Shown here: positions 1,215-10,571 of the stretch, in pieces
Position numbering within the stretch: position 1 is the first letter of the stretch
Layout of the letters: the number at the start of each line of letters is the position of its first letter
NCBI GenBank assembly: GCA_013215025.1
Contig: JABSRR010000001.1
Coordinates: 70,225-81,024, forward strand
Direction: 5' to 3'
Length of the DNA: 10,800 nt
Source: Pseudomonadales bacterium
GTDB taxonomy: Bacteria; Pseudomonadota; Gammaproteobacteria; Pseudomonadales; DT-91
Program-made: the position numbers and the translations under genes
The notes under the pieces: model-generated
Told to the model about the DNA's origin: nothing
The model's database searches: none
The model's input: the letters and a program-made list of their open reading frames with translations, nothing else

Positions 1215-2234
1215 ATGGCATTAAATAATATTGGCGGGGCGATAGTCGTCTGCGCGCTTTATCGTTTCGTACGTCTTGAAAATTATCTCGAGATGCGCGA
1301 ACCACTTTTACACACCCTATTAAAACATCAGATCAAAGGCACCTTATTGCTTGGAGAAGAAGGCATTAACGGCACCGTCGCCGGCAGCCGCGAAAGCATT
1401 GATCAATTGCTTACGTTTCTTAATCAAGACTCCAGACTAGCAGGCTTCAGCTATAAAGAATCCTATGATGATGAGATGCCTTTTTATCGCACTAAGGTGA
1501 AGTTAAAAAAGGAAATTGTCACCATGGGCGTCGAAGGTATCGACCCAAATCACACGGTTGGCAGCTATGTGAAGCCAAAGGATTGGAATGCCCTGATTTC
1601 TGATCCAGATGTTGTGCTTATAGATACGCGCAATGATTATGAAGTTGGGATTGGTACTTTTCAGGGCGCGCTAGACCCAAATACGAAAACTTTTCGCGAA
1701 TTCCCCGATTACGTAAACAACAACTTAGACCCTGAGCAGCATAAAAAAGTGGCGATGTTTTGTACCGGCGGCATTCGTTGCGAAAAATCTACTGCCTATT
1801 TAAAACAGCAAGGTTTTGACGAGGTCTACCATTTGGAAGGTGGCATTTTAAAATACCTTGAAGAGGTCGACCCGCAAGAATCTTTGTGGCAAGGGGAATG
1901 CTTCGTCTTTGACAATCGCGTCTCGGTCACTCACCAACTTGAAAAAGGTGCTTATGATCAATGCCATGCCTGCCGTCGCCCGATCACCGAAGAAGACAAG
2001 CTCAAATCAGAATACGTTGCTGGCGTCAGCTGTCATCAGTGTATCGATGAATACAGCGAGGAACAAAGAGCCAGGTTTAAAGAGCGTGAAAAGCAAATCC
2101 AGTTGGCTAAGCAACGCGGTGAAAGTCACATTGGTAGTGATGCATTAGCTACGCTGGAGGCTCGCAAAGCTGAAAAACGTGCCAACAAAAACTTAATGCG
2201 TGAGCAACAACAATCTATCAGTCACAAGCGCTAA
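1215..2234 (+). CDS. trhO: tRNA uridine(34) hydroxylase TrhO (rhodanese-like, YceA/UPF0176)
   Basis: A 339-residue cytosolic protein that matches the TrhO/YceA family, which hydroxylates uridine 34 in the wobble position of certain tRNAs, using oxygen, towards 5-hydroxyuridine and its cmo5U/mcmo5U products. Domains in order: an N-terminal acylphosphatase-like region with the family motif [11 protein letters not shown] (47-57); a rhodanese domain (about 125-220) with DTRN (137-140) and the active loop [10 protein letters not shown] (183-192), where C183 is the expected catalytic cysteine and C189 is also conserved; and a C-terminal region with two CxxC pairs (C250/C253 and C273/C276) that probably bind zinc, followed by a charged Lys/Arg-rich tail. 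The ATG is preceded by GAGG with five-base spacing and a convincing promoter, so the start is secure. It appears to be transcribed alone, converging on the CheX gene with 37 bases between the stop codons and no visible terminator. Confidence 0.95.
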
Positions 2235-2271: not shown

Positions 2272-2721
2272 TCATGATAAGTAAATGACGATGGATGAGT
2301 TATATTGTTTCCAATATAGCGGCACTACATAGCAGCGCTCATTACCCTGCGAAAACTGCTGATTAACACTGCCAGAAACCACTTTAGGCGTTGAAATTAG
2401 AAACTCTGAACCAAAATGCTTGCGTAAATTGCCCGAGATAGTATTCGCGACCTCGCCCACCATATCTTCCATATTAACGATAGAAGTGTCAGACTCGCCC
2501 ATGCTGAGCAATAAATGTTTAATCATGATACGCGGTGCACTATAACGCAACCAGCCATTTTTATTTCCCGATATTGCAATCATACCTGATAAAAACTCGG
2601 CATCTTCAGCTTGATCGGCATTCAATAAGTATGGCGTACCAACGCTAACATCATCATTACGTGTGACATTAAAATAATTTACCACACTCTCAACTAAAGC
2701 TTTAAGTTGATTCTCTTCCAC
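2272..2721 (-). CDS. CheX-type response-regulator phosphatase
   Basis: A 149-residue protein of the CheC/CheX/FliY phosphatase family, which removes phosphate from CheY-like receivers. The family signature D/S-x3-E-x2-N is present once as DMVGEVAN, with D86, E90 and N93; a single copy is the CheX arrangement. The surrounding GNLRKHFG helix and the PKVVSG segment (112-117) also fit. It starts with GTG; the preceding GGAG (2728-2731) lies inside the last codons of the receiver gene, with only three bases between the two genes, so translation is probably coupled to the receiver. As last gene of the four-gene unit it most likely dephosphorylates that receiver and sets how long the signal lasts. 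The target is inferred from gene order. No full CheC-like second active site or FliM/FliN-type domain is seen. Confidence 0.88.
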   Translation of the reverse strand: MEENQLKALVESVVNYFNVTRNDDVSVGTPYLLNADQAEDAEFLSGMIAISGNKNGWLRYSAPRIMIKHLLLSMGESDTSIVNMEDMVGEVANTISGNLRKHFGSEFLISTPKVVSGSVNQQFSQGNERCYVVPLYWKQYNSSIVIYLS

Positions 2722-2724
2722 TTT

Positions 2725-3087
2725 TTACTCCATGATAACTTTTTCAAGTGCTGATTTAAGTTCGTCATCAGCAAAGGGCTTGCATAAAAATCCACGTGCA
2801 CCCAACTCAAGTGCCTCTATCGCAGTTTCTTTATCAGATAGTGCCGAAACAATGAGAATACGAATATAAGGATCTTTTTCTAACAAGGCTTTTGTCGCCT
2901 GCAAACCATCCATCTCTGGCATAGTTATATCCATGGTTACTACATCAGGCTTATGCTCATGCCAAGCCGCAACTGCTTGTTCACCATTAGCCGCACTGGC
3001 AACAACTTTAAATAACGAATTGCCATGTAAGCGCTCAATTTGTTTACGAATAATGTTTGAGTCATCAACTATCATTAATCTCAACAT
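2725..3087 (-). CDS. stand-alone CheY-like receiver protein
   Basis: A 120-residue single receiver domain with no output domain. The full phospho-acceptor set is visible: acidic pair D8/D9 (VDDS), phosphorylated D53 (VTMDITMP, 50-57), S81 in the switch position (LIVSALSD) and K103 (LCKPFADD). It therefore should accept phosphate from the kinase encoded just upstream. The ATG has GAGGGA about ten bases in front, overlapping the kinase stop codon TAG, so it is the third gene of a tight operon. Lacking a DNA-binding or enzymatic output, it must act through protein contacts: a flagellar motor, a type IV pilus motor, another kinase cascade, or as a phosphate shuttle. Which of these applies cannot be read from the window. 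It is clearly receiver class; calling it CheY proper would go beyond the evidence. Confidence 0.92.
   Translation of the reverse strand: MLRLMIVDDSNIIRKQIERLHGNSLFKVVASAANGEQAVAAWHEHKPDVVTMDITMPEMDGLQATKALLEKDPYIRILIVSALSDKETAIEALELGARGFLCKPFADDELKSALEKVIME
2728..2731 (-). promoter_or_regulatory. ribosome binding site deciding the GTG start of the CheX gene
   Basis: On the minus strand GGAG lies six bases before the GTG start at 2721 and is made from the final ATG-GAG codons of the upstream receiver gene. Ribosomes finishing the receiver would be placed on the CheX start, which would keep the two products in a fixed ratio. Confidence 0.6.
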
Positions 3088-3102
3088 GTATTGCTGTTCC
3101 CT

Positions 3103-5214
3103 CTAAACTGAATTTTCAGTGTTAACTATTGCTTTTTTATCAACAGTAATCGGCAATAGTAAGATGAACTTACAAAACTCACCTTGCTCATTTTTAACCG
3201 AAATTTTACCGCCAAGCTTGTGTACCATCTGACGAACTGCCAACATACCCAAGCCACGACCGGCATCTTCATTGACCTCACTGGCGGTCGAGAAGCCGGG
3301 TTCGAAAATCATTTTTAGCAACTGTGCTGAAGACCATGAAACAACCTCTGTGTAAGATGCTTTTTGCATCTCAACCACGCGGGCACGTATCTTATCTAAG
3401 TCGATACCGTTACCATCATCCCTTACCGTCATGGTCAGCTGTTTCGCATCAGCAATTAGCTGAATAGACAGTTCACCTTCAGCTGGCTTTTCTCCGCGCA
3501 TTGAGATGGGCTCAATACCATGGGTAACCGAATTTCTAACCAGTTGCACTAGAATATCTTTAACCGGTCTAAGCATTGATTCAGGCAAATAGTCTTTACC
3601 ACGCTGCTTCAACTTGAGATTCACTTTTTTGTTGTGTTTACTAGCGATACCGTCAATTAAGCTCAGAAGGGCAGACTTTGATACGATACCGTTAGCTTTA
3701 TCCTCTTCTTGCGAATATTTTTCTACAAGATTTTGCAACTGTTCGGCAACTTTCACATAACCCTCTAGCTCTTCGAGCAAACCTCTCAGCATCACCGCAA
3801 GTGGTAAAAAGTCATCACCTTCAACATCATCTTTTTTTCGTAAAGCAATTACAGACTCTTCCATTGTATGTGTGTCTTTAGCAATAGAATGCATATTCAT
3901 CATGCTAGATTCACCTTTAAGCTTATGAAGCTCTGTGGCGATGTGATCAATTTGCTGTCTAAATTGATCACTGCGACGACTAGGCTGCTGCAAAATTGCA
4001 TTGATTTTATGCAATCGCGCCAATGAATCGTTGACGAAGTTCACGAAGTCTTTAGGGCTATGATCTAACACACGACTTAAAACCGACATGTGGTTACCTT
4101 GACTACTCTGCAACTTGTCTAACTTAGCTTTCAAATCAACTTGAATACTGATATCTTGCGCAGTAACTAAAATTTGCTTGACCTGATCTCCTTCATAGGC
4201 GCGTTTAAATGAAAACGAGACATATTTATTTTCAAATTGACCTTTTTCATTTGCAATTAATAATCGAATATTTTTTAAGGGGTTTAAGTCATCTAACAAT
4301 GATTCATCCACCTGCCCGTCCAGCAAAACTTGCAAATATTTTCTTATCATTGCTAAGTCATCATTGCTGACTTTATTATTAAATAATTCTTCAAAACGCT
4401 TATTAGCTATATCACTATCATCAAATAATTTTGTTGCAAAGAGAGAATGTTCAGTTGAAATACGCAAATCTCGATCTAACAAAAATAGTCCTTCATTAAC
4501 GGTATCTAATATCTTTCGAGTTTCACCTCTAACAGAATGAATTTGATCATCTGTTTCTCGCAACTGACCAATAAAGTGATAAATAATAATAATAAAATTT
4601 ATGATCGCTAAACTGATACCAATAGTTTGCACCATGCGTAAACGGTCAGCTTTACTGCTAGCCAATACCTCCATATAGTTAGCAAGATCCGATGAGATTT
4701 CTAATAATGTAATATTATTTGACGCAACATACATTTCAGCTTCTGCTAGATTATCTAAAAACCAAGCCTGTTTAACCGGTGCTGGTAGATTGATTACAGG
4801 GTTGATCAAATTTTTAAACGGCTGCCAGACTTGATCTATTTTATTGATAAATGCTTCGCCTTGCGCTGTCTCAACAGCCTTTAAAAACACGATCTCACCG
4901 GTCGGTGAATACGTATTACCGCCCTGCCTAAACGCTGCCAAAGTTTCATCAAAGTTTTGATACGTGTTCTTAAGCTCTTTAAAGGGCTTATTAACGTCGC
5001 CATTATCGCGCAAAGAAACTTCTAGCTCATATAAGGACTTCATTAGACGCTGGCTCATCATCTGTAATTGACCAGCTTGAGATACAGCGATTGCGTCGCC
5101 TTTCAGGGCAAAGGCAATATAAAAATTCATTGCAAGAATAGATGCATCGAGCACAATAAAGAGTGCAATTGCAATAACAATATTTCGATATTTACCCGTC
5201 AATAGTGAAAACAT
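3103..5214 (-). CDS. membrane CheA-like sensor histidine kinase with PilJ-type input, PAS and internal HPt
   Basis: A 703-residue inner-membrane kinase. Helix 1 (about 11-33) and helix 2 (about 195-214) bracket a periplasmic region of about 160 residues; its QAGQLQMMSQRLMK motif (46-59) resembles the PilJ/type IV pili chemoreceptor N-terminal domain. A PAS-like domain follows (about 232-360), then an HPt helical bundle (about 385-495) with the phospho-acceptor H430 in HKLKGE. The ATPase domain is CheA-like: N box LVRNSVTHGIE (558-568), DDGNGID (599-605), IFEPGFSTA (636-644) and GRGLGM (652-657). The protein ends shortly after LLLPIT, without the CheW-like P5 domain and without a receiver. Expected chemistry is trans-phosphorylation of H430 and transfer to the receiver encoded next. 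The gene starts 15 bases after the beta-helix gene stop; its own ribosome site is weak (AGGTTGG). Architecture is clear; the ligand is unknown. Confidence 0.92.
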   Translation of the reverse strand: MFSLLTGKYRNIVIAIALFIVLDASILAMNFYIAFALKGDAIAVSQAGQLQMMSQRLMKSLYELEVSLRDNGDVNKPFKELKNTYQNFDETLAAFRQGGNTYSPTGEIVFLKAVETAQGEAFINKIDQVWQPFKNLINPVINLPAPVKQAWFLDNLAEAEMYVASNNITLLEISSDLANYMEVLASSKADRLRMVQTIGISLAIINFIIIIYHFIGQLRETDDQIHSVRGETRKILDTVNEGLFLLDRDLRISTEHSLFATKLFDDSDIANKRFEELFNNKVSNDDLAMIRKYLQVLLDGQVDESLLDDLNPLKNIRLLIANEKGQFENKYVSFSFKRAYEGDQVKQILVTAQDISIQVDLKAKLDKLQSSQGNHMSVLSRVLDHSPKDFVNFVNDSLARLHKINAILQQPSRRSDQFRQQIDHIATELHKLKGESSMMNMHSIAKDTHTMEESVIALRKKDDVEGDDFLPLAVMLRGLLEELEGYVKVAEQLQNLVEKYSQEEDKANGIVSKSALLSLIDGIASKHNKKVNLKLKQRGKDYLPESMLRPVKDILVQLVRNSVTHGIEPISMRGEKPAEGELSIQLIADAKQLTMTVRDDGNGIDLDKIRARVVEMQKASYTEVVSWSSAQLLKMIFEPGFSTASEVNEDAGRGLGMLAVRQMVHKLGGKISVKNEQGEFCKFILLLPITVDKKAIVNTENSV

Positions 5215-5229
5215 ACACCAACCTATGCG

Positions 5230-6978
5230 TTAAGAAGATGGAAACTGTGTCCAACCATCTAACCAAGTAATTGCAGTACCCGGGCGAATTGCACCAATAT
5301 AATTAGCCCCCTCATCCCAAAATTCACCTTGAGGAATACGCGCCAGACTATCACGCGCAGGCGAATGCCCTAGGGGAGTAAACTCTGGGTTATAAGCATT
5401 ATATATAGCTGCGGGTAATCGCGGATCGATACCAAATTTAAAATTCAATCGAGCATCAGAAAAATAATCAGCTTCAATAAATCCATTATCATCATCAGCT
5501 TCCGCCTGCTCAGCTGCGAAATACTGACCATCATTTATTTGGTCTAAAATCAAATCAGAAAAATTTAAGGTTTCTAAGCGAGTCAACCGCTCAATCGCTT
5601 CACCGCGCAGATCGATAGATTCTCGACTGAAACCCACCATTAGAATATTGCCGAATTCACCGCCAGAGCCGCGGCGCAATGTCATACCTCGCTGTGAGGT
5701 TTGGGTTGAATTACCGCCAATCAAAGTGACGTTATAAAACACCGGCGCTGAACGTGGTAAGGCATCTGGGTTCTGCTTAAAATTATCACCCTCAAAAGCA
5801 TTATCGCCATCATCATTGTGCATTTGCACAACAAGAAATTGTACTCGGCCAGTCCAGCCCATATCCCAATCAAATGCATCATCGCCGGCGCCGGTAACGA
5901 GAATATTTTTAAGGTCTACAGTGCCGCCAAATACTTCAATGCCATCGTCTAGAGACTTATGCACCTGAACATTACGAACAACCGTTTCCTTACCGCATGC
6001 GCCCAAAGTGAGGCCATTAAGTTCGTTATCAATAAATGTTTCAAAACCCGCAAACTCAACTCTAACATATTCTAAATTTCCGCAATTAGAGCTAGGGTCG
6101 CTTCCGCCAAATTCACCGCGCGGATCATTTGCATCGATGCCTTCTAATTGCCCCTGGCGATTCACCGGTGCATTTCCTAACAACACTAGCCCACCCCAAT
6201 CGCCGCGATTTCTTTGCCCCTCTGGTTTATTGGAGGTGAATACAATAGGCGCGTCTTTTCGCCCTTTAGCAATCAATTGGGCATCACGCGTAACAATTAA
6301 TGCTGAGCCTGGCTCACCAAAAATCGTAGCACCCGCCTCAATCGTCAATTTCGTTTTACCCTCTACAAATACAGGCTCTTGTAAAATGTAAGTATTGTTG
6401 GATTTAAACACTGTATCCGTTTGAATTGACCCACTGAGTAGAATTTCCTTCTCGCCAGTCATAGATTGAATATAGGGCTGTATATTTAGGCTAATGCTAA
6501 GCACTAACAGAATGCTTATAAATGACGACGCCCATTTCCAAACGCTGATGCGTTTGGAAAATTGCTGCTGTAAGATAGCTTGGCTTTGTTGCACTGCTTG
6601 TTCAATTTTCTCATTCAATACGGCCTGACTAATGCCTCCCATACCATTATCAGCTCGGTTATGCCCTAACATTCGAGCCTTAACATCATCGATATGCACG
6701 CTACCTTGTAAGTCCATTTTTGCTAATCGCAGCGCAATACTGGCAATATCAGCGTTTTTAACTTTAGACAGTTTATCGATTACTTGATTACGGTATTTTG
6801 CTTGACGTAAAAGCGCATCAAAATTGAGTGGTTTAGCGTCAGCTGCTTTATGTTGTTCATAGCCTTTTTTTAAATCCCAAAGATCTCGAATGGCTAGCTC
6901 TACTACTTCAATCTCATGTTGCTGTTCGGCAGTAAATGGTGCTTGTTCGGCTTGTTCGGCTGAAGAATCATCTGTCAT
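5230..6978 (-). CDS. membrane-anchored protein with cytoplasmic helical region and periplasmic beta-helix ectodomain
   Basis: A 582-residue protein with one membrane segment (about 147-167) preceded by KRISVWKW, implying an N-in, C-out topology. The cytoplasmic part (1-145) is charged and helical, with a likely coiled coil at 118-142. The outer part (168-582) reads as a right-handed beta-helix: LTIEAGATIFGEPGSALIV (211-229), the GDWGGLVLLGNA turn (259-270), then recurring Asp/Gly-rich coils such as SLDDGIEVFGG (342-352) and GAGDDAFDWDMGW (363-375). The LTIEAGATI and DWGGL pattern is familiar from secreted or lipid-anchored beta-helix proteins of marine bacteria, which are uncharacterised. Only two cysteines (C299, C328) occur, both outside, so one disulfide is possible. 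Catalytic pectate-lyase residues were not recognised. First gene of the kinase unit, with a strong AAGGAGG ribosome site. A 9-base tandem repeat (6942-6959) encodes AEQAEQ near the N-terminus. Sensor, adhesin and enzyme all remain possible. Confidence 0.85.
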   Translation of the reverse strand: MTDDSSAEQAEQAPFTAEQQHEIEVVELAIRDLWDLKKGYEQHKAADAKPLNFDALLRQAKYRNQVIDKLSKVKNADIASIALRLAKMDLQGSVHIDDVKARMLGHNRADNGMGGISQAVLNEKIEQAVQQSQAILQQQFSKRISVWKWASSFISILLVLSISLNIQPYIQSMTGEKEILLSGSIQTDTVFKSNNTYILQEPVFVEGKTKLTIEAGATIFGEPGSALIVTRDAQLIAKGRKDAPIVFTSNKPEGQRNRGDWGGLVLLGNAPVNRQGQLEGIDANDPRGEFGGSDPSSNCGNLEYVRVEFAGFETFIDNELNGLTLGACGKETVVRNVQVHKSLDDGIEVFGGTVDLKNILVTGAGDDAFDWDMGWTGRVQFLVVQMHNDDGDNAFEGDNFKQNPDALPRSAPVFYNVTLIGGNSTQTSQRGMTLRRGSGGEFGNILMVGFSRESIDLRGEAIERLTRLETLNFSDLILDQINDGQYFAAEQAEADDDNGFIEADYFSDARLNFKFGIDPRLPAAIYNAYNPEFTPLGHSPARDSLARIPQGEFWDEGANYIGAIRPGTAITWLDGWTQFPSS

Positions 6979-7234: not shown

Positions 7235-7744
7235 ATGAGCGAAAATAAATTCGACTATGTTAAAACACGTCGAGAAGACGTTGATGAGATCCCGGCCAAA
7301 TGGGTGCCGCTGGTCCGTAAAGTAATGCGTCGCTATACCCAATTTAATGTATGGGTGTATAAGAAAAGCAATGGCCGCTTGATGAAGCACTTCCCAGGTG
7401 GCTACCCCATATGTATTGTCGGCATGACCGGTCGCAAGTCTGGCGAACGCCGTGAGGTCGCGCTTATTCACTTGCCATGGCAAGACCAAGGCGTAGATAA
7501 AAAACTGATCGTTGCCTCACAAGGCGGTATGGATAAACATCCGGTGTGGTATCACAATATTAAAGCCAATCCAGACATTGATATTATGGTCACCGGGCTA
7601 AAGCACGATTACACCGCGCGACAAATTTCAGAAGATGAAAAGCGCGCACTATGGCCACATTTGCTAAGTCTTTACCCTGATTTTGACGAATATCAAGCTC
7701 GCACCGACCGCGCAATCCCTGTATTTGTCTGCGAGCCCAAATGA
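7235..7744 (+). CDS. deazaflavin-dependent (Ddn/F420H2-type) quinone or nitro reductase
   Basis: A 169-residue protein of the Ddn family, split-barrel oxidoreductases that in mycobacteria use reduced coenzyme F420 to reduce menaquinone or nitro compounds. Diagnostic segments are VGMTGRKSGERREV (62-75), the cofactor-phosphate binding loop, LIVASQGGMDKHPVWY (91-106) and HNIKANPDIDIMV (107-119). The N-terminus (1-50) is amphipathic with KKS and RLMKHFP, as in family members that touch the membrane. No signal peptide is seen. The ATG has AGGA seven bases in front. It is transcribed away from the kinase operon and appears to be a single gene, since the next clear gene is 466 bases on. Whether this organism makes F420 cannot be decided here; many proteobacterial homologues have unknown cofactor use, and FMN or another deazaflavin is possible. 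Family call is firm, substrate unknown. Confidence 0.88.
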   Translation: MSENKFDYVKTRREDVDEIPAKWVPLVRKVMRRYTQFNVWVYKKSNGRLMKHFPGGYPICIVGMTGRKSGERREVALIHLPWQDQGVDKKLIVASQGGMDKHPVWYHNIKANPDIDIMVTGLKHDYTARQISEDEKRALWPHLLSLYPDFDEYQARTDRAIPVFVCEPK

Positions 7745-9203: not shown

Positions 9204-10571
9204 TTAAGCACAGGCTTTAAACAGTGCCTTCGCCTGTTCGGCCGCCGTTTTATGATTCACCATTGGTGATGGGTATCCAGCCGGCTGCTCGTCACTGAGT
9301 TCAAGCGCATGAATCGCTTTAGCACTCAACTCTCGCAGCTCAGGCAGCCAGCGCTTAATATAGGCGCAGTCAGGGTCGAAGCGTTGCTGCTGACGCCAAG
9401 GGTTGAAAATACGAAAATACGGCTGTGCATCACAGCCGGTTGAGGCTGCCCATTGCCAATTACCATTATTGACCGCACTGTCGTAATCGATTAACAAGTT
9501 TTTGAAATGTGCCTCACCTAGTCGCCAGTCAAGGTGTAAGTCTTTCACCAAAAAAGAGGCCACAATCATACGCACCCGGTTGTGCATAAACCCTGTCTGC
9601 CGAAGCTGGCGCATGCCGGCATCTACAATCGGAAAGCCAGTTAAGCCATCTTGCCACCGTTGTAATGCCTCGTTATCGTACTGCCAGGCGATAGCATCAT
9701 ATTGTGGTTTAAATGCCTTTTGCATCGCATGTGGAAAATGCCAAATGATATGGTAATAAAAATCGCGCCAGTAAAGCTGTCGCAACAGTGGTGATTGTTG
9801 TCCCAAGCTTGCGGCAATCAACTGATAGCATTGGCGAATAGATATCACCCCAAGTTTTAACAGTGGCGATAATCCGGAGGTAGACTCTAAGGCAGGAATA
9901 TCTCGCACCTCATCATAGTCATGTAATTCGGCCAGTTTTTCCATAATTGAGGTATGCATATCAGCAACCGAAAGTGCGTTATCGGGCTGCTGATCAAGCT
10001 GCCAATAGTCACGTAAGGCGTCCGCATTAAATTGCAATGACGAAGGCGCTGGGAGAAACTCACCAGCCACAGTCGACGCTGATGATTCTACTGGATATTG
10101 CAGGGCGCGTTTAAAAAATGGCGTAAATACGGTATACGGTGCGCCGTCGGCTTTGGCGATAAAACCGGGCGGAAACAATAGGCTATCGTGCTCTAGCTGC
10201 AGAGCAATATTATGCTGCTGACAATAATCACTGAGCTGTTGATCTCTCTGGCGCCCCTGAGGCGTGTACTCGAGATTTGCAAATACGCTGTCAACGGCAA
10301 CAAATTCAGAAAGCTGTGCTAGCGCTTCTTCAGGGCTACCGTAGGCAAGCCAGAGATTAGCCTGATGCTTGTGTAACTGTTGCTCGAGGTGCGCTAGAGC
10401 ATCCACTAATAAGGATTTTGCAAACTGGCGTCCTACAGCGGCAAAGCGCGGATCAACCACAAATAGGCAAATCACCTGCTCTGCTTGCGCGCAGGCAGCT
10501 TGTAGGGCTTTATGATCTTCAAGCCGAAGATCACGGCGAAAAATACATACAGCTTGGCGATATTCAGTCAT
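9204..10571 (-). CDS. phrB: deoxyribodipyrimidine photolyase (class I CPD type)
   Basis: A 455-residue enzyme that uses blue light and reduced FAD to split UV-induced cyclobutane pyrimidine dimers. The N-terminal antenna domain starts with IFRRDLRLEDH (10-20). The C-terminal FAD domain contains LYWRDFYYH (266-274; W268 in the substrate-contact position), WQDGLTGFPIVDAGMRQL (306-323), GFMHNRVRMI (327-336), and NNGNWQWAASTGCDAQPYFRIFNP (starting at 368). The electron-transfer tryptophans of E. coli photolyase have apparent counterparts W306, W349 and W372. Length is slightly short of E. coli PhrB (472). The antenna chromophore (folate or 8-HDF deazaflavin) cannot be told from sequence by eye. 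The ATG at 10571 is the only usual start codon after an in-frame TGA about 75 bases upstream, but its ribosome site is poor. Single gene, read towards gloA. Confidence 0.94.
   Translation of the reverse strand: MTEYRQAVCIFRRDLRLEDHKALQAACAQAEQVICLFVVDPRFAAVGRQFAKSLLVDALAHLEQQLHKHQANLWLAYGSPEEALAQLSEFVAVDSVFANLEYTPQGRQRDQQLSDYCQQHNIALQLEHDSLLFPPGFIAKADGAPYTVFTPFFKRALQYPVESSASTVAGEFLPAPSSLQFNADALRDYWQLDQQPDNALSVADMHTSIMEKLAELHDYDEVRDIPALESTSGLSPLLKLGVISIRQCYQLIAASLGQQSPLLRQLYWRDFYYHIIWHFPHAMQKAFKPQYDAIAWQYDNEALQRWQDGLTGFPIVDAGMRQLRQTGFMHNRVRMIVASFLVKDLHLDWRLGEAHFKNLLIDYDSAVNNGNWQWAASTGCDAQPYFRIFNPWRQQQRFDPDCAYIKRWLPELRELSAKAIHALELSDEQPAGYPSPMVNHKTAAEQAKALFKACA

Follow-up and report, generated by a model that had tools for sequence, protein, structure and literature searches.

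A recurrent kinase-CheY-CheX gene set with a CheA-type transmitter, accompanied in one lineage by a beta-helix membrane protein

The CheX and CheY proteins of Thermotoga and Borrelia act in flagellar chemotaxis, together with CheA/CheW arrays. The locus analyzed here, which lies in a 10,800-nucleotide stretch (the window) of a Pseudomonadales genome (the source genome), encodes a CheX of the same family, with the same ExxN site, and it adjoins a CheY gene as theirs does. By contrast, the operon in the window holds no array genes, and the source genome has no FliM/FliN.

In the sections of Berry et al. (2023, PMC10782961) available to us, all surveyed CheA proteins have domains P1, P3, P4 and P5, and none has a sensor domain. 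The window kinase resembles CheA in its Hpt phospho-histidine, its CheA-type ATPase and its use of CheY as receiver; it differs in that P5 is absent, P3 is not found by profile, and a PilJ sensor and a PAS-like domain are fused onto it. According to the accessible part of PMC6381276, NarX/NarQ and McpN have in common with this kinase a periplasmic four-helix domain of PilJ type, but NarX and NarQ work via NarL and NarP, McpN is a receptor, and the window kinase has Q at the position of McpN R61. An extracytoplasmic partner that tunes a membrane kinase, as we propose below, is described in the available portions of the work on QseG-QseE (PMC12691602) and CpxP-CpxA (PMC4160245); the putative partner in the window, by contrast, is a one-span beta-helix membrane protein. 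We set aside the Caulobacter Hmr pathway as a counterpart, since the excerpt of PMC11481889 presents it as a hybrid-kinase phosphorelay; the string 'chex' occurs zero times in the literature listing for it. A description of the kinase-CheY-CheX triad was not found in the open-access papers searched, as judged by title or abstract.

The operon consists of four minus-strand genes separated by spacers of 15, 15 and 3 bases, in agreement with an initial annotation that was made from the letters of the window. Its features are as follows.

5230..6978, minus strand: single-span membrane protein of 582 aa, predicted to carry a beta-helix in the periplasm
6664..6930, minus strand: its helical N-terminal domain, residues 17-105, predicted cytoplasmic (alignment and model)
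6457..6621, minus strand: long helix that includes the membrane span, residues 120-174 (model and sequence)
5287..6447, minus strand: right-handed beta-helix, residues 178 to about 564 (predicted structure)
3103..5214, minus strand: membrane histidine kinase, 703 aa, in the order TM, PilJ, TM, PAS-like, Hpt, CheA-type ATPase, with no P5
4792..5109, minus strand: periplasmic PilJ-type four-helix sensor, residues 36-141 (Pfam PilJ, E 1.4e-13)
4153..4491, minus strand: putative PAS-like domain, residues 242-354 (suggested by secondary structure in the model; no Pfam match)
3772..4038, minus strand: Hpt domain, residues 393-481 (Pfam Hpt, E 4e-06)
3925..3927, minus strand: phospho-acceptor H430, conserved in the family alignments
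3148..3558, minus strand: CheA-type HATPase_c domain, residues 553-689
2725..3087, minus strand: single-domain CheY-like receiver, 120 aa (Pfam Response_reg, E 3e-31)
2929..2931, minus strand: receiver phospho-acceptor D53, invariant in 10 of 10 aligned rows
2272..2721, minus strand: gene of a CheX-family CheY-P phosphatase, 149 aa, GTG start (Pfam CheX, E 8.6e-15; 10-row alignment)
2443..2454, minus strand: CheX ExxN motif, E90 to N93, its first and last residues unchanged across all 10 aligned rows

The gene content, the domains and the catalytic residues are direct observations, and H430, D53 and the ExxN site are all intact, as had been reported. When the genes of the window are scanned by profile, no CheW, P5, receptor, CheR or CheB is found in the operon. 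The initial annotation had held that this is not an array-chemotaxis operon and that its kinase, receiver and phosphatase form an orderly set, and both views are borne out; we reject array chemotaxis for an operon that has no CheW, receptor or P5. Array genes (CheW, receptor, CheR and others) are encoded elsewhere in the source genome, outside the operon. The operon had also been called self-contained, which holds for the kinase, the receiver and the phosphatase and fails for the output, as the partner of CheY is not encoded in the operon.

Around the operon, a gene of the F420H2-dependent quinone reductase family (window 7235-7744, plus strand; Pfam E 5.3e-35) diverges from the beta-helix gene, and a gene for a UPF0176 rhodanese-type protein (1215-2234, plus strand) converges on the operon's end; a DNA photolyase gene lies at 9204-10571 on the minus strand. 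Promoter- and terminator-like sites are rarer in the window than in shuffled sequence, and neither Rfam matches nor tRNA genes were found there.

The kinase carries its own sensor. Its PilJ segment scores 51.4 bits against a Pfam cut-off of 26.6 and sits, in the structural model, between two membrane spans, with helices at residues 10-69 and 150-234. Because the kinase has this periplasmic PilJ-type domain, the cascade need not begin at the beta-helix protein, where the initial annotation had it start.

We compared 68 members of the kinase family, the window kinase included, drawn from 117 matches of a protein search. HATPase_c is found in all 68, and PilJ and Hpt in 65 each. H430 is invariant in this alignment and present in 203 of 206 rows of a larger one; the 68 rows also show no variation at K433 or at the ATP-site residues N561, D600, G601, G652 and G654. 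By profile, none of the 68, the window kinase among them, has a CheW/P5 domain, and the window kinase chain stops at its ATPase domain. The P3 domain (H-kinase_dim) likewise matches in 0 of 68, a count to be read with the remark, in the part of PMC10782961 available to us, that HMMER misses P3 in many true CheA. In the region of P3, profile matches to longer CheA constructs (4xiv and 1b3q) begin at residues 455 and 485, and the model has helices at 466-500 and 513-526. The weakest of the 117 matches, P0117, alone has CheW and H-kinase_dim, and is by its domains a true CheA. Since none of the 68 carries a CheW/P5 domain, the window kinase, as judged from its sequence, falls outside CheA despite a transmitter of that type. 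A NarX-type transmitter is rejected on the same CheA-type ATPase.

In the receiver, D8, D9, D53 and K103 are all invariant in the 10 aligned rows. The CheX profile matches with 55 bits against a Pfam cut-off of 27, and the ExxN motif is what we take to be the CheX active site; the NCBIfam model CheX_Thtogales gives the window CheX a score of 29.1 against a cut-off of 280. The source genome has two CheX matches, each beside a kinase of this kind, one in the window and one on contig C41. The kinase of this second triad (L008 / L080) is 35% identical to that of the window, and no beta-helix gene occurs in the stretch of C41 that we read.

In order to see how far the triad extends, we scanned named genomes with the kinase alignment and took the best 80 loci of at least 590 stretches. 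Another 14 loci, including that of the window, bring the total to 94, and dropping the duplicate contigs L084 and L085 leaves 92. CheY adjoins the kinase in 90 of the 92 listed loci, including the window and the source-genome paralogue, and CheX is present in 82. The exceptions are of several kinds. At L005 (CheX) and L141 (CheY and CheX) the gene is missing where the contig ends early; at L103 both genes are present more than 1 kb from the kinase, so that CheX was counted and CheY was not; L148 has no CheX within just 862 bases of downstream sequence. A further seven loci (L073, L149, L155-L158 and L161) have CheY and room downstream, yet no CheX, and CheX is therefore not strictly needed. 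Taxa named in the record titles of the best 80 loci are presumably all gamma- or betaproteobacteria, the remaining titles giving Proteobacteria or uncultured bacterium. Cultured environmental species that carry the triad include Spongiibacter thalassae (L152) and Parathalassolituus penaei (L086). To judge from these loci, the conserved unit is three genes.

A tandem pair of CheX genes stands at 21 of the 92 listed loci. Twenty of these pairs, which follow CheY, belong to the 21 loci grouped as Psychrobacter and kin (L075-L077 and 17 between L109 and L151, where L075-L078 are grouped by family number only), and the pair is also seen in Moraxella oblonga (L132). At L099 the frame that follows the kinase is 312 aa long and contains the CheX match, which may reflect a fusion or the way the genes were called.

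The beta-helix protein has a different distribution. Its N-terminal domain is probably cytoplasmic, given the basic residues that precede the span, and its relatives match Pfam PF28492. Because Foldseek gave no match for the model at E up to 0.001, the fold assignment comes from a second structural look, which found a common fold only. Among 293 genomes of the order, 24 (the source included) encode a relative of this protein at more than 360 bits and at least 42% identity, and 14 carry the kinase (E 1e-40). Both occur in three genomes: the source genome, G027, where they lie on separate contigs, and G231, where they are about 0.9 Mb apart. Of the 23 other close beta-helix loci we read 19, and to these we added a more distant one (G026); at none of these 20 loci from other genomes is the kinase or CheX nearby, and the neighbors are argH at eight, a GMC oxidoreductase gene at seven and neither at five. 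Conversely, the beta-helix gene occurs at one of the 92 listed kinase loci, that of the window, while 80 of the 92 have more than 2 kb upstream. The proposal that the four genes make up one general unit is thus rejected on counts of 1/92 and 0/20.

The expected co-occurrence of the beta-helix gene with the kinase, which failed at these 20 loci, did appear in a small clade. In a search of 5.8 billion proteins, the best-matching kinases and beta-helix proteins lie on contigs of equal size in six cases, counting the window: the sizes are 16611, 362269, 38361, 34281 and 30885 bases, and 81024 for the window's contig. CheX matches lie on contigs of the same five other sizes, and no further coincidence occurs among the 117 kinase and 120 beta-helix matches listed. 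The kinases on the five contigs are as little as 42% identical to that of the window. In a quick tree, made with no bootstrap, the linked kinases form a clade with P0004 (SH-aLRT 100), and the linked beta-helix proteins form one with P0122 (100/99); the inner branching differs between the two clades, at branches that are short. The P0004 contig, at 3510 bases, is too short to hold both full genes. Two CheX relatives, P0241 (66%, contig of 141872 bases) and P0247 (57%, 8525 bases), are as close as the linked ones, and neither has a kinase or beta-helix protein on an equal-sized contig among the matches listed. Because contigs of equal size, matching clades and kinase identities down to 42% coincide, the linkage appears old within one lineage and restricted to it; on the five contigs it is known through their equal sizes alone.

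In G027 and G231 the beta-helix gene lies directly before a kinase-regulator pair, between argH and hemC (L055:5533-9243 and L060:3549-7173). The pair in L055 consists of a PF06580 kinase and a LytTR regulator, and we take the pairs in both loci to be AlgZ/AlgR-like. At L052 a transposase gene follows the beta-helix gene, with an AlgZ-like gene further on. The beta-helix family may have associated with two-component systems on more than one occasion.

The input of the kinase can also be compared with that of McpN, in which R61 makes two hydrogen bonds to nitrate and the R61A mutant does not recognize nitrate, according to the part of PMC6381276 available to us. A profile match to 6gcv (E 9.4e-07) and a weak pairwise alignment of the relative L004 (E 0.016) both place the position of window residue Q51 opposite R61, and the equivalence also fits the residue spacing given in that part of PMC6381276. 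The arginine is therefore absent from the window kinase. The position is Q in five of the seven kinases of the window's clade, P0004 included, and R is kept in two linked ones. A sharp split had been apparent in the 68 chosen rows (Q in 5/7 of the clade, R in 60/61 others), but in the 206-row alignment, in which some genomes enter twice, as a P row and an L row, 141 of the 199 rows from outside the clade keep R and 58 have lost it (4 of these being gaps). The loss of this arginine is thereby weakened as a marker of beta-helix-linked kinases. The Q at position 51 is consistent with an altered input in the window's lineage, though it falls short of demonstrating one; the PilJ domain of the window kinase would be predicted not to bind nitrate.

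What the receiver acts on must be sought outside the operon. The source genome, which is 96% complete, has no match to FliM/FliN (FliMN_C), and we reject a flagellar output on that ground. FliMN_C is found in five of the 14 kinase-bearing genomes versus 216 of 293 overall, and PilP in 13 of 14 versus 248 of 293; these counts are confounded by kinship, as five of the 14 genomes come from one family (f35) and three from the window's own. The one kinase-bearing genome with no PilP match is the source genome itself (G000), which may reflect a gap in its assembly or a genuine loss. It does encode T2SSE ATPases, as well as a ChpA-like protein, cut by the contig start, with four Hpt stretches, CheW and a receiver; ChpB- and ChpC-like genes accompany the ChpA-like gene. 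A separate receptor-CheA-CheR gene set is present, and the genome has eight CheW domain matches. Since PilP occurs in 13 of 14 kinase-bearing genomes, and Pil-Chp-like genes and T2SSE ATPases in the source genome, we consider the type IV pilus machinery the most plausible candidate for the target of CheY, if an unproven one.

Our preferred explanation, which as a whole falls just short of probable, is an array-independent two-component system of three genes, with the beta-helix protein as an accessory particular to one clade. The kinase would sense a periplasmic signal via its own PilJ-type four-helix domain, and the signal would run through the PAS-like domain to the CheA-type Hpt-ATPase transmitter, leading to autophosphorylation at H430. 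The phosphoryl group would pass from H430 to D53 of the single-domain CheY, and CheY~P would then bind a protein encoded outside the operon, presumably a non-flagellar target. CheX would dephosphorylate CheY~P and so fix its decay time. The beta-helix protein, at the front of the operon in the window's lineage, would most likely tune the kinase as an accessory, either a co-sensor or a scaffold; it is more likely a lineage-specific addition of this sort than the start of the cascade.

The same three-gene core could stand beside a beta-helix gene that is a mere transcriptional neighbor, encoding an envelope protein with no part in signaling. We regard this as rather unlikely: the beta-helix gene often lives elsewhere, beside argH, a GMC oxidoreductase gene or neither, and never near this kinase in the 20 other loci read, but its linkage to the kinase persists down to 42% kinase identity, and it also directly precedes the AlgZ/AlgR-like pair in two other genomes. 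The three-gene core that this reading has in common with our preferred explanation is, by itself, quite probable. It is improbable, on the other hand, that the beta-helix protein is the receptor, with the four genes forming one cascade from there and the PilJ domain reduced to a passive link. Such a reading would draw on the five further contigs of equal sizes that carry beta-helix, kinase and CheX, and on the Q found in five of seven clade kinases at the R61-equivalent position (R51). Many kinases outside the clade, however, lack the arginine too, and two linked kinases retain it; the window kinase still scores for PilJ, and the kinase stands with no beta-helix gene at 91 of the 92 listed loci, 79 of which have more than 2 kb upstream. 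Finally, the kinase might be a reduced CheA that supplies, through cross-talk, a chemosensory array of the source genome, whether Pil-Chp-like or of another kind. Its CheA-type ATPase, and the ChpA/ChpB/ChpC-like genes, CheA-receptor-CheR genes and eight CheW domain matches of the source genome, would suit that role, but we consider it very unlikely, given that CheW domains occur in none of the 68 family members, that the kinase has its own membrane sensor, and that its own CheY adjoins it in 90 of the 92 listed loci.

Returning to the three-gene system, the module is real and recurs across genomes: a one-piece membrane sensor with a CheA-type transmitter, joined by a free CheY and by its dedicated CheX. 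If this reading is true, CheA-type catalysis can combine with a free CheY and a CheX phosphatase of its own into a stand-alone membrane sensor system that does without CheW or receptors, and that recurs in Gamma- and Betaproteobacteria, some of which have no flagellar switch. A swappable input and a lineage-specific beta-helix partner would then be a case of such systems gaining new inputs. One may go further and picture an array-free counterpart of chemotaxis that steers surface behavior (type IV pili or adhesion) with no flagella, in which the beta-helix protein, perhaps binding polysaccharide of the envelope or matrix, is an obligate co-receptor that replaces the small-ligand site of PilJ; we would be surprised if this fuller picture proved correct.

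At L074:5272-7665, a similar transmitter carries a dCache sensor in the position of PilJ, so that inputs appear to have been swapped on a similar transmitter. A further relative of the kinase, P0008 (834 aa), apparently has two PilJ-type segments in tandem, as judged by eye from repeated sequence.
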